From: a virus
Reading direction: 5' to 3' (one strand)
Virus record (IMG/VR): IMGVR_UViG_3300042868_004895
Location: 1-52,815 of that record
DNA length: 52,815 nucleotides
Below the pieces are notes generated by a model that had not been told where the DNA came from, did not search any database, and worked only from the letters and a program-made list of their open reading frames with translations. Shown here piece after piece: positions 5,240 through 18,992 of the stretch (its first letter is position 1; the number at the start of each line of letters is the position of its first letter). A program made the position numbers and the translations under genes.

Positions 5240-5302
5240 TTGACCTACCTTCAAACCCACAGTATGAGGGTACATCAGTAACGAAGAAACGGAGTACACA
5301 AC
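5240..5302 (+). promoter_or_regulatory. early promoter 1 and conserved leader
   Basis: TTGACC (5240-5245), 17 bp spacer, TATGAG (5263-5268). An imperfect dyad TACCTTC/GAGGGTA (5246-5252, 5266-5272) straddles the -10 box. A leader ATCAGTAACG...CGGAGTAC follows, the most diverged copy of the leader found before five other early genes. It drives the gene at 5303 and probably the genes after it. Confidence 0.65.
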
Positions 5303-5592: not shown

Positions 5593-5621
5593 ACCCTATC
5601 AGCAACACAGGAGTACATCAC
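5593..5621 (+). promoter_or_regulatory. conserved early leader copy without an obvious promoter
   Basis: TATCAGCAACACAGGAGTAC at 5597-5616 is a copy of the early leader including the Shine-Dalgarno sequence. It follows a hairpin instead of -35/-10 boxes, so its transcript presumably comes from the promoter at 5240. It matches the antisense loop at 16415-16434 at 18 of 20 positions. Confidence 0.6.
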
Positions 5622-5876
5622 ATGACCATCATCACACAAGCAATCGAGACGAAGTACCTCAAGGCCACCAACGTGCGCGGATCGCGCATCAAGGCCACCG
5701 CACTGGCTGGCAGCCTGACCGTCGGCTACGACTACGCCCTCGACAGCGACGCCAACCACGCGGCCGCAGCGCAGGCGCTCATCGCACGCCTCGGCTGGAC
5801 TGGCACATTCGCTCAGGGCGGCAACGCTGCGGGCACTGGGTACGTCTTTGTCAACATCGAAGGAGCGCTGGCATGA
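5622..5876 (+). CDS. conserved small phage protein, 84 aa
   Basis: 84 residues. It contains TKYLKATNVRGSRIKATA followed by a segment with SLTVGYDYAL and LGWTGTF. From memory, proteins of this pattern are common in phages, with no assigned function. The start is set by the conserved leader SD (AGGAG) and lies downstream of the hairpin. It overlaps the next small gene by ATGA. Probably a small folded cytoplasmic protein. Confidence 0.78.
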   Translation: MTIITQAIETKYLKATNVRGSRIKATALAGSLTVGYDYALDSDANHAAAAQALIARLGWTGTFAQGGNAAGTGYVFVNIEGALA

Positions 5877-6323: not shown

Positions 6324-6368
6324 TTGCATCCTTTAAGGGTACCTCATCAGCAACAAGGAGCACACGAC
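6311..6368 (+). promoter_or_regulatory. early promoter 2 and conserved leader
   Basis: TTGCAA (6311-6316), 17 bp, TAAGGG (6334-6339; TTTAAG two bases earlier is the alternative). The -35 region carries a dyad TGCAAT-N5-ATTGCA. The leader ATCAGCAACAAGGAGCACAC follows and supplies the SD of the gene at 6369. Confidence 0.62.
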
Positions 6369-6632
6369 ATGATACGACCAATCATCAACAACAACGGCAC
6401 CAACGCCCTCGACCTTATCGACGCCCGCCGCAACGCGATGGCCCTGATCAACGAGGTTATCGACGCGCTCAAGCAGGTGACGCCCAACGGCCGCGACTAC
6501 CTCGGTGATCGCGACCGGCTCATCGCCGACCGTAACCTCCACTTCGACCGACTGGCAGCACTGCACGCACTGCGCGAGGAGCTACTCGACGAGGCACTGC
6601 ACATCCAACAGCAAGAGAAGGTGGGAGCATGA
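6369..6632 (+). CDS. hypothetical helical early protein, 87 aa
   Basis: 87 residues. A short N-terminal Asn-rich segment (IRPIINNNGTNAL) is followed by long amphipathic helices (ALINEVIDALKQV, RLAALHALREELLDEAL). Its start is fixed by the conserved leader SD, and its end overlaps the next gene by ATGA. No known domain. Confidence 0.7.
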   Translation: MIRPIINNNGTNALDLIDARRNAMALINEVIDALKQVTPNGRDYLGDRDRLIADRNLHFDRLAALHALREELLDEALHIQQQEKVGA

Positions 6633-8170: not shown

Positions 8171-8228
8171 TTGCACATACCCTCAAACTCCTCTAGTGCG
8201 AGGGTATCAGCAACAAGGAGTACACGAC
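8171..8228 (+). promoter_or_regulatory. early promoter 3 and conserved leader
   Basis: TTGCAC (8171-8176), 17 bp, TAGTGC (8194-8199). A perfect dyad ATACCCTC (8177-8184) / GAGGGTAT (8200-8207) flanks the -10 region, as at 5246-5272. The leader TATCAGCAACAAGGAGTAC follows. Confidence 0.65.
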
Positions 8229-13024: not shown

Positions 13025-13081
13025 TTGCAATACGTGTTTGCATCGTTCATAGGGGGTCATCAGCAACAAGGAGTACCCAAT
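13025..13081 (+). promoter_or_regulatory. early promoter 4 and conserved leader
   Basis: TTGCAA (13025-13030), 17 bp, CATAGG (13048-13053). Dyad TGCAA-N7-TTGCA (13026-13042). The leader ATCAGCAACAAGGAGTACCC follows. The upstream words ATGCAAATTAGGTGTTG also occur, nearly identical, before the promoter at 5240. Confidence 0.65.
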
Positions 13082-16082: not shown

Positions 16083-16333
16083 GCGTAATCGGCCACAACT
16101 CCAGCGAAGATCAACTGCGCCTCCTAATCGAGCGTGTTGAGCGTCTGGAAGAAGAAAAGAAGGGCGTCTCCGAAGATATTCGGGACGTCTACAGTGAAGC
16201 GAAAGCCTTCGGCTTCGATGCGAAAATCATGCGTCAAATCGTCCGCCTGCGGAAGATGACAAAGGATGACCGGGCGGAGATGGAGGCCATACTGGAGACC
16301 TACAAAAAGGCTCTTGGCATGGATCTGCTCTAA
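16079..16333 (+). CDS. GapR-like nucleoid-associated protein (DUF2312)
   Basis: 84 residues from a GTG overlapping the upstream stop as GTGA. The sequence matches the GapR/DUF2312 pattern almost throughout: LLIERVERLEEEKKGVSEDI, then RDVYSEAKAFGFDAKIMRQI, then VRLRKM and a final EAILETYKKALGM. Bacterial GapR is a tetramer that encircles AT-rich, overtwisted DNA ahead of replication forks and aids topoisomerases (established for Caulobacter). A phage copy between SSB and polymerase probably helps fork progression or replaces the host protein on phage DNA. The family is mainly alphaproteobacterial. Confidence 0.9.
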   Translation: MSVIGHNSSEDQLRLLIERVERLEEEKKGVSEDIRDVYSEAKAFGFDAKIMRQIVRLRKMTKDDRAEMEAILETYKKALGMDLL

Positions 16334-16342
16334 CTGTATAAG
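16314..16342 (+). promoter_or_regulatory. predicted promoter for the structured leader and DNA polymerase
   Basis: TTGGCA (16314-16319), 17 bp spacer, TATAAG (16337-16342), the best sigma70-like match in the early region. It lies in the last codons of gapR. Transcription would start at about 16348-16350, within the left arm of the first inverted repeat. Confidence 0.6.
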
Positions 16343-16345
16343 ATT

Positions 16346-16463
16346 GGTGCGTTGGTCTCTATCCACCCTTTTAGACCAACGCACCTCTATTCTGGCGAGC
16401 CGCGCGTGGTGCGGGTGCTCCTGCGTTGCTGATACACGATCGCGCGGCTCACCAGAATAGAGG
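16346..16463 (+). ncRNA. structured leader or small RNA upstream of DNA polymerase
   Basis: The 140-bp gap before the polymerase holds two inverted repeats. IR1 is a perfect 13-bp stem (16346-16358 / 16373-16385). IR2 is a 23-bp stem with one mismatch (16384-16406 / 16441-16463). They share two bases at 16384-16385, so full pairing of both is exclusive. The 3' arm of IR2 contains the polymerase SD, AGAGG. The IR2 loop has GTGCTCCTGCGTTGCTGATA (16415-16434), antisense to the conserved early leader. Its GCTGATACA (16428-16436) also complements TGTATCAGC (16465-16473), just before the GTG start. The repeats are plain in the sequence; an RNA function is inference. Confidence 0.6.
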
Positions 16464-16473
16464 ATGTATCAGC

Positions 16474-18444
16474 GTGACTACACTTTGGCTTGACCTTGAA
16501 ACATACAGCACCGTGCCCATTAAGCACGGCGCGCACCGCTACGCCGAGGCGGCGGAGGTGCTACTCGTGGCGGTCGCAGTAGACGACGAGCCTGTCGCCG
16601 TGTGGGACTGCACGCAGGGACACGCCGACTGGCGTCAGCGCCTGCAGGCCCTGCTCGACGCAGCCGACACCGTCGTCATCCACAACAGCGCCTTCGACCG
16701 CACCATCCTGCGCCATCAAGGCGTGCACGTGCCCGTCGACAAGATCGAGGACACTATGGTTATGGCGCTCGCGCACAGCCTGCCAGCCTCGCTGGGCACG
16801 CTCTGCGACATTCTTGGCGTGCCCGTCGATAAAGCTAAAGACAAGTCCGGCAAAAAGCTGATACAGTTGTTTACGAGCCCGTGCCCACGGAACTGGAAGA
16901 TACGGCGCGCAACGTCGGAGACGCATGCAGATGAGTGGACCAACTTCGTCGAATACGCCCGCCTCGATGTGGACGCGATGCGAAACATACACGGCCGCAT
17001 ACCAAGATGGAATTATACACATAGTGAGCGGTACCTTTGGCAACTCGACCAAGGAGTTAATGACCGTGGTATCGCCGTCGATGTTGACTTCGCCAAGGCA
17101 GCAATCCGAGCTTTTCGACGAGCTTCTGGATCTTTGGCCACTCGTGCGGCAAGCCTGACCGGCGGCGCGGTTCCGAACACAACGCAGCGCGAGAAGCTTC
17201 TGCAGTACCTGCGCACGGCGCGTGGGCTCGAGCTTGAAGACCTGACGAAGGCGACCGTCGAGACCCTGCTGAAGGGCGAGCTCGATCCGCTGACGCGCGA
17301 GCTGCTCGAGATACGCCAGCAAGCCTCGGCCACGTCGCCTGCGAAGTACGGCGCGCTGATGGACGCAGCCTCGACGGACGGGCGCTTGCGCGGGACGATG
17401 CAGTTTTGCGGCGCAGGCCGCACAGGCCGTGACGCGGGCCGCATCTTTCAACCGCAGAACCTGCCCCGCTCGCCCGACTGGTTCGACGGCGACGTTCAGG
17501 AGCAGACGATTGTCGCGTTCAAGACGGACTGCGAGGACATCATCTACGACAACGTCAGCGAGCGCTGCGCCTTCGCCGTTCGCGGGTGTCTGGTCGCGGA
17601 CAAGGGCAAGAAGTTTGTGATCGCCGACCTTTCCAACATCGAAGGGCGCGTCCTTGCGTGGATGGCCGGTGAGGCGTGGAAGATTGAGGCCTTCAAGGCG
17701 TACGATCGCGGCGAGGGCGCGGACTTGTACAAGGTGACCGCCGGGCGCATCCTGAACAAGGATCCGTTCGAGGTGACGAAGGGCGAGCGCCAGACGCAGG
17801 GCAAGGTGCCTGAGCTGGCCGGAGGCTACGGCGGCGGCCTCGGTGCCTACCGCAAGATGGGCGGCGCAGTGTTCGACGCGATGGACGACGACACCATCAT
17901 GGAGATCGTGCACGCGTGGCGTAAGGCGCACCCTGCGACGAAGCGCTTCTGGTACGACGTCGAGGGCGCAGCCCGCTCGGCCGTGCGCGCCGAGGGGGAG
18001 AGTTTCGCCGTGCGCGGGGACATGGTGCGCTTCGACCGCCAGAAGGGTCCCGACGGCGTTGATTACGTTCGCTGCCGTCTGCCGTCTGGCCGGTACCTGT
18101 GCTACCGCAGCATGCACATCAACGAGGACGCCAAGCTCGTGTACGAGGGCATGAACCAATTCACGCGCAAGTGGGAGCTGCAGGAGACGTACTACGGCAA
18201 GCTGGTCGAGAACATCGTTCAGGCCGTGGCGCGCGACGTGTTCATGACCGGCATGCGCCGCGCCGAGGAGAACGACTATCCCGTCGTCCTGCGCGTGCAC
18301 GATGAGCTTGTGTGCGAAGTGCCCAACCACAAGGGCTACGACGCCGACGTTTTAGCGACAATGATGTCAACGAACCCGAGCTGGTCGATAGGCCTGCCGC
18401 TGTCGGCGGCGGGCTTCGAGGGCCTGCGCTACCGTAAGGAATGA
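16474..18444 (+). CDS. family A DNA polymerase with 3'-5' exonuclease
   Basis: 656 residues from the GTG at 16474, which has AGAGG 10 nt upstream. An in-frame TTG 48 bp earlier lies inside the hairpin loop and is unlikely. Exonuclease domain: D7 and E9 (LDLETYS), D75 (HNSAFD), Y161/D165 (YARLD). Polymerase domain: motif A DLSNIEGR (D385), motif B R439...K444...YGGG, motif C VHDEL (D610, E611). All catalytic residues are present, so it should be an active replicative polymerase with proofreading. It works with the primase-helicase, SSB and GapR encoded nearby. Start-codon access may be controlled by the inverted repeat just upstream. Confidence 0.95.
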   Translation: MTTLWLDLETYSTVPIKHGAHRYAEAAEVLLVAVAVDDEPVAVWDCTQGHADWRQRLQALLDAADTVVIHNSAFDRTILRHQGVHVPVDKIEDTMVMALAHSLPASLGTLCDILGVPVDKAKDKSGKKLIQLFTSPCPRNWKIRRATSETHADEWTNFVEYARLDVDAMRNIHGRIPRWNYTHSERYLWQLDQGVNDRGIAVDVDFAKAAIRAFRRASGSLATRAASLTGGAVPNTTQREKLLQYLRTARGLELEDLTKATVETLLKGELDPLTRELLEIRQQASATSPAKYGALMDAASTDGRLRGTMQFCGAGRTGRDAGRIFQPQNLPRSPDWFDGDVQEQTIVAFKTDCEDIIYDNVSERCAFAVRGCLVADKGKKFVIADLSNIEGRVLAWMAGEAWKIEAFKAYDRGEGADLYKVTAGRILNKDPFEVTKGERQTQGKVPELAGGYGGGLGAYRKMGGAVFDAMDDDTIMEIVHAWRKAHPATKRFWYDVEGAARSAVRAEGESFAVRGDMVRFDRQKGPDGVDYVRCRLPSGRYLCYRSMHINEDAKLVYEGMNQFTRKWELQETYYGKLVENIVQAVARDVFMTGMRRAEENDYPVVLRVHDELVCEVPNHKGYDADVLATMMSTNPSWSIGLPLSAAGFEGLRYRKE

Positions 18445-18933: not shown

Positions 18934-18992
18934 TTGCAACCTGTGTTTGCATATGCTATATACTGCGTATCAGCAACGAAGGAGTAAACCAC
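18934..18992 (+). promoter_or_regulatory. early promoter 5 and conserved leader
   Basis: TTGCAA (18934-18939), 17 bp, TATATA (18957-18962). Dyad TGCAA-N7-TTGCA (18935-18951). The leader TATCAGCAACGAAGGAGTAA follows. Confidence 0.7.

Follow-up and report, generated by a model that had tools for sequence, protein, structure and literature searches.

Immediately upstream of its DNA polymerase gene, the environmental virus record analysed here (52.8 kb; 52,815 nt, hereafter the window) carries a structured 5' leader whose hairpin loop probably works as a trans-acting antisense RNA that blocks the early operons, and the phage very probably switches its early genes by RNA pairing. The architecture of this element, the co-variation of its stem and the co-variation of its loop with both the early leaders and a cis site are shown by comparison of sequences alone. 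That the element acts as an RNA is inferred without transcript or small-RNA data, with high confidence; that the outcome is repression of early translation is likewise inferred, without translation data, and we consider it likely; that the element marks the switch from early expression to replication is an inference for which the balance is even.

The polymerase leader comprises two hairpins behind its own predicted promoter, all on the forward strand. The promoter, called from sequence, is sigma-70-like (TTGGCA-17 nt-TATAAG, 16314–16342), and its start site is expected at about 16348–16350, the foot of hairpin 1 (16346–16385; 13-bp arms at 16346–16358 and 16373–16385). Almost all of 55 distinct relatives retain the TATA element, 3' of the upstream gene's stop codon; conservation of TTGG does not count as independent evidence because these bases overlap a conserved Leu-Gly codon run of the upstream gene. 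Hairpin 2 (16384–16463) is the window's strongest inverted repeat, with 23-nt arms (16384–16406 and 16441–16463) that are 96% complementary and a 34-nt loop, GTGCTCCTGCGTTGCTGATA, whose antisense core (16412–16434) is made up of an anti-spacer/anti-SD module, GGGTGCTCCT, and an anti-box module, GTTGCTGATA. It lies directly 5' of the GTG start at 16474 of a family A DNA polymerase gene (16474–18444, forward strand; Pfam DNA_pol_A PF00476, and PF01612), the presumed Shine-Dalgarno (SD) sequence of which falls within the 3' foot of the hairpin. The polymerase shares 57% identity with its counterparts in Caulobacter phages GB2A and RW, and its early operon mates are a DUF2800/PD-(D/E)XK protein, an Enc34-type ssDNA-binding protein and a GapR-like protein, with the promoter and both hairpins sitting between the GapR-like gene and the polymerase. 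The GapR-like DNA-binding protein (PF10073, 16079–16333), encoded directly 5' of the hairpin, points to an alphaproteobacterial host range. No T-run or U-run is present 3' of hairpin 2, where the sequence continues directly into the polymerase start, so that a discrete small RNA would require processing. The sequence-only reading had imagined the loop as part of a small RNA; the element is not a small-RNA gene of its own: it forms the structured 5' leader that precedes the polymerase coding sequence, and a predicted promoter lies immediately 5' of it.

Relatives were gathered by a single-protein search, followed by pattern scans with the loop and inner stem and by a polymerase-profile scan. 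The single-protein search returned five close relatives with 91–94% polymerase identity and an identical loop, and the pattern and profile scans added dozens of further contigs. A hairpin with arms of 23–34 nt and a loop of 23–42 nt precedes the polymerase in 78 of the 79 related virus records examined, a clade spanning polymerase identities down to ~58%, at a distance of 2–15 nt or, where an extra ORF is inserted, of ~56–1030 nt. The one exception, L137, has neither the hairpin nor recognisable leaders in its 9.3 kb; in this close relative a PAPS-reductase-like ORF precedes the polymerase. When 38 distinct leaders were aligned, 95.6% of the cells in the hairpin 2 stem were paired, and two-sided (compensatory) changes were found at 17 of 22 pairs, a result obtained in 0 of 500 shuffles and lost when the partner was shifted by 1–3 columns. 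The stem of hairpin 1 also co-varies strongly across relatives, as in the change from GTTGG/CCAAC to GTCGG/CCGAC in L004.

The inserted ORF is found between hairpin and polymerase in about half of the relatives (L005, L007, L008, L017, L027, L115 and others). It encodes 97–99 aa or ~214 aa, takes over the TATCAGC-ATG start and looks like homing-endonuclease-type cargo; no Pfam match was obtained for the two inserted ORFs tested. In L113 (215–345) the hairpin stands before a different kind of ORF (MTRKTKGDPRTLVFRKG...) and is followed by a site with the full length of the box, AATCAGCAACGACATG. Among cultured or annotated relatives (GB2A, BPP-1, BcepC6B, BL94, Acinetobacter phage 4316 and RcRudolph), no equivalent hairpin was found before the polymerase. 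A genome-contig scan identified five polymerase relatives, only one of them close (68%), in a possibly misbinned Bacteroidia MAG contig that lacks the hairpin. Two other inverted repeats were seen near polymerase genes: a perfect 16-bp repeat with a 40-nt loop in the bbp40/bbp41 gap of BPP-1 (L207), shortly before the end of the polymerase operon, which gave no signal above coding-region background as an antisense to phage starts, and, in a Gallionellaceae MAG contig (L205), a perfect 22-bp repeat with an 18-nt loop that precedes the polymerase by ~670 nt.

The loop of hairpin 2 is antisense to six early leaders of the window, and thereby to the ribosome-binding leaders of nearly all early operons; the complementary stretch takes in the box ATCAGCAAC, the SD and some of the spacer. 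The reverse complement of 16415–16434, TATCAGCAACGCAGGAGCAC, finds its two best ungapped matches on either strand at 5597–5616 (18/20) and 18968–18987 (17/20), the first of which reproduces the match from which the sequence-only reading had started. That reading had also listed matching leaders at 6369, 8229, 13082 and 18993, with one small length difference; the matches hold, but these positions are start codons, and the length difference of 1–2 bases applies to the first three leaders only, the fourth being gapless. The corresponding forward-strand leaders lie at 6345–6361 (predicted mRNA 5' end, ATG 6369; predicted duplex energy with the loop of -35.5 kcal/mol), 8205–8221 (predicted mRNA 5' end, ATG 8229; -33.9), 13058–13074 (ATG 13082; -35.9), at the head of the operon that continues into the DUF2800, ssDNA-binding and GapR-like genes, and 18968–18985 (ATG 18993; -33.8), behind the polymerase operon. 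Two further leaders lie on the same strand, at 5597–5616 (ATG 5622; -39.0), directly behind a terminator-like hairpin and with no evident promoter, and at 5274–5300 (ATG 5303; -30.1), with a longer spacer and a variant box, ATCAGTAAC, that differs by one change.

The duplex prediction that had been proposed as a check was run with RNAduplex, an energy model in which loop and leader are treated as open strands. The six leaders gave -30.1 to -39.0 kcal/mol, whereas the means of their shuffled versions lay between -13.4 and -15.6, and none of 300 shuffles reached the observed energy for any leader. In one comparison, late-gene starts paired more weakly with the loop (about -9 to -27) than the leaders did (-26 to -38). 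The consensus ATCAGCAAC-N0-3-AGGAG-Y-A occurs six times in the window, as five leaders and, reversed, the loop, and not once in 300 Markov-simulated windows. Most leaders start 5–7 nt past a predicted -10 element, which makes the box the probable 5' end of the mRNA. An internal start region, TGTCAACATCGAAGGAGCGC (5849–5873), matches the anti-loop sequence at 15/20 positions with -34.8 kcal/mol and is a possible seventh target. The early promoters at 6324–6345, 13031–13053 and 18938–18957, like those of many relatives, contain a doubled TTGCA (TTGCAA-N7-9-TTGCA) that spans the -35 element and spacer, is conserved in relatives and is probably the site of a phage transcription regulator. Two other early promoters (5245–5275 and 8180–8206) instead have an inverted repeat, TACCCTC...GAGGGTA, placed between the -35 element and the start, possibly an operator.

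Across relatives, six loop classes with readable leaders could be distinguished, and the leaders of each genome follow its own loop. Within 10-kb flanks, GTTGCTGAT loops are accompanied by 88 distinct ATCAGCAAC leaders and no ACCAACAAC, and GTTGTTGGT loops by 16 ACCAACAAC leaders and no ATCAGCAAC. The GTTGCTGAC loop (L175/L117) has GTCAGCAAC in 3/3 leaders, and the loops GTTGCTGAG (L147), TTGCTTGAT (L197) and GTTGTTGAT (L130) go with CTCAGCAAC, ATCAAGCAA and ATCAACAAC leaders, respectively. A whole-contig search of twelve contigs yielded a block-diagonal table: the window contains five TCAGCAAC leaders and none of other classes, L130 six TCAACAAC and no TCAGCAAC, L197 two TCAAGCAA and no other class, and GTTGCTGA-type contigs 4–5 TCAGCAAC each and no ACCAACAA. 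The GTTGTTGGT contigs L179, L184 and L194 contain 4, 6 and 2 genuine ACCAACAA and 0, 1 and 0 TCAGCAAC; a seventh ACCAACAA match in one GTTGTTGGT contig was excluded as its own loop in reverse reading. The SD module appears, from the sequences, to have shifted as well in the GTTGTTGGT clade, where AAGGGAT leaders face ATCCCT loops. In L009, with loop GTTGCTGGT and TCAGCAAC leaders, the pair is kept only by a G-U wobble. The exceptions are one TCAGCAAC leader within a ACCAACAAC genome and CTCAGCAAC, with a mismatch at the edge, in 10 of ~108 main-class leaders.

Mapped on the polymerase tree, these data correspond to seven loop changes and seven leader changes, and of the 15 records with a variant loop, 14 have variant leaders. 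When the 4–5 independent pairs are put to a yes/no sign test, p is 0.125 at best and cannot reach 0.05, because few of the loop changes are independent. A generic leader scan with swapped-loop energies was noisy, since it admitted coding-region hits, and was not decisive for single-locus classes. As far as the comparisons go, the strength of the co-variation rests on the exact matching of nine-base words, and on this basis selection on the loop/leader pairing is strongly supported. The proposal that the loop pairs with SD-bearing leaders in several early mRNAs gains support from this trans co-variation; a loop that failed to co-vary with the leaders of relatives would have refuted it, and the opposite was found.

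The loop has a further partner in cis. Between hairpin 2 and the GTG start lies TGTATCAGC (16465–16473, forward strand), a 9-nt complement of loop positions 16428–16436, and in many members TATCAGC, complementary to the loop, occupies the same place between hairpin and start codon. Among relatives, co-variation with the loop extends to bases of this site that are not part of the shared box: GCTGATAC loops, with TAC behind GCTGA, go with GTATCAGC sites, with GTA before TCAGC (one exception), GCTGATAA loops (TAA) with TTATCAGC sites (TTA; one exception), and GCTGATCC loops (TCC) with GGATCAGC sites (GGA) in 2/2 cases.

Such a site raises the alternative that control runs in the reverse direction, with the early leaders or the cis site binding the loop to regulate polymerase translation and with little effect on early mRNAs; a cis pseudoknot would block the start codon, and the early leaders would open it. 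The co-variation of the 7–10-nt start-codon site with the loop in most relatives and the burial of the polymerase SD within the stem foot are both as this alternative would have them, but the anti-SD and anti-spacer segments of the loop are left unused by the cis site, and several lineages (L138–L140, L160–L164, the L178–L195 clade, L191 and L196) lack the site yet retain the match between loop and leaders. Since the matching persists where the cis site is missing, the trans role is the more conserved one. We regard reverse control as unlikely overall; polymerase-directed control remains possible in lineages with the cis site.

The co-variation with leaders and cis site also bears on what kind of sequence the box is. 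Leaders and loop might be DNA sites of one phage regulator, the loop merely holding a reversed site and the co-variation tracking a changing DNA-binding protein. A genome-wide co-variation would be expected of a DNA site too, and 113 of 123 counted leaders lie directly behind a promoter. The box is nevertheless kept in promoterless leaders behind terminators or stop codons (window 5597; L006 354; L130 9811; L191 1055; L196 6085; L153 3064), which favours a role at the RNA level, and the complementarity extends over SD and spacer. Also against a DNA site are the invariable antisense orientation of the loop and its place, in every case, at the apex of a co-varying stem with G-U pairs, the cis site that co-varies with loop bases beyond the shared box, and the L009 pair held only by wobble. 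We consider the DNA-site explanation improbable.

The sequence-only reading had itself offered another origin, an inverted leader copy left by recombination, which could be functionless, with gene conversion maintaining the similarity. Although the loop does look like a leader turned around, the element is retained in 78 of 79 records with both stems co-varying, loop and leaders agree only where they pair and diverge in spacers and flanks, and the loop bases matched by the cis site are other than those matched by the leaders. The loop/leader co-variation makes a recombination fossil very unlikely and the copy hypothesis untenable; given also the conservation and the pairing-only match, a non-functional inverted copy can in practice be ruled out, and we attach next to no credence to it.

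We thus return to a trans-acting antisense loop as the preferred reading. The loop would pair with the 5' end that the early mRNAs have in common, covering box, SD and spacer over ~18–20 bp, and would block 30S/ribosome binding on all early operons together as the polymerase transcript accumulates. Because the loop-bearing transcript also encodes the polymerase, build-up of polymerase mRNA would lower early translation. In most relatives the loop may also pair with the site just 5' of the start codon behind the hairpin, which would place the downstream gene under the same control. With the polymerase SD held in the foot of the long stem, translation of the polymerase would seem to require that the stem be actively unwound or be processed, by RNase III for instance, and processing might release the loop RNA; cleavage of the stem by RNase III that frees both the polymerase SD and the loop RNA is inferred without cleavage data and is at best a tentative proposal. 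A closed loop on a 23-bp stem that pairs with ~20 nt of another RNA is topologically demanding, although a free mRNA 5' end may help the ~20-nt leader to wind into it, again an inference. The long near-perfect stem expected of an RNase III-processed leader is present (arms of 23–34 nt in 78 records), and so are two properties expected of a trans-acting antisense RNA, conserved complementarity to several translation initiation regions and co-variation of regulator and target. Alternatively, pairing could present early mRNAs together with the polymerase leader to a nuclease, RNase III or another, with mRNA cleavage or processing rather than ribosome blocking as its purpose. Both the 23–34-bp stem and the loop/leader duplex are of a size suited to RNase III; direct evidence is lacking, steric blocking of the SD requires no nuclease, and we find this purpose very improbable.

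Early shut-off in phages is usually ascribed to switches in transcription or to protein repressors, T4 RegA among them. Antisense control of ribosome-binding regions is known from the c4 RNA of P1/P7/P4-type phages, which lies upstream of a gene, has loops antisense to the ribosome-binding region and controls one antirepressor operon, and from staphylococcal RNAIII and RsaE-type RNAs, whose C-rich loops are complementary to the SD of several mRNAs as short, generic anti-SD sequences. Here, unlike in the RNAIII and RsaE types, the target is a long box specific to a gene set and co-varying with the loop. Unlike c4 (RF01695, listed in PMC2864571), one loop matches five or six operons in trans in addition to a cis site, and what lies downstream is the polymerase or an ORF inserted ahead of it rather than an antirepressor operon; the c4 model gave no match at its gathering score in the window and none up to E = 10 over 16250–16560.

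T4 RegA is a single repressor that acts on the translation initiation regions of ~30 early mRNAs and is encoded within the replication gene cluster (PMC3014915). The element described here likewise provides one regulator for many early initiation regions, sited among replication genes, but RegA is a protein, whereas the regulator here is an RNA loop in the polymerase leader and its targets are near-identical leaders. On our best reading, with repression inferred, the antisense hairpin is a functional RNA counterpart of T4 RegA. The operator of T4 gene 43 (DNA polymerase) is also a leader hairpin affecting initiation (PMC3014915); it is bound by the polymerase protein, whereas the conserved feature here is a loop antisense to other mRNAs. 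VpdS and PreS are phage small RNAs that act in trans by base pairing and are reported to be Hfq-dependent, PreS acting on host dnaN (PMC12197685). The loop would share this mode of action, but its targets are the phage's own early leaders, and it is carried in a long-stem 5' leader with no terminator behind; the discrete transcript ending in a Rho-independent terminator and U-run that characterises such RNAs has no counterpart at hairpin 2. Rfam 15 gave no match at gathering threshold, the sub-threshold hits being to generic hairpin families, BLASTN of the leader (16334–16480) found no match among GenBank phages and plasmids, and no description of such an element was found in the open-access literature.

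In principle the element is an antisense RNA; what is new, to our knowledge, is the architecture, a polymerase leader with one loop set against the whole early regulon, and in lineage-specific codes. We lean towards a new phage RNA family, in which the polymerase leader serves as a trans antisense RNA against a shared 5' tag of the early mRNAs and as a cis switch, with one loop as the early-to-replication switch and a lineage-specific lock-and-key code that co-evolves. The comparative evidence, from a clade seen in dozens of environmental virus records, points to a single RNA loop that addresses an entire early regulon by way of a shared leader tag. Loop and tags that have been rewritten together several times are rare natural evidence for one-to-many RNA pairing, and the natural loop/leader classes, such as GTTGCTGAT/ATCAGCAAC and GTTGTTGGT/ACCAACAAC, offer ready-made orthogonal pairs for testing it.
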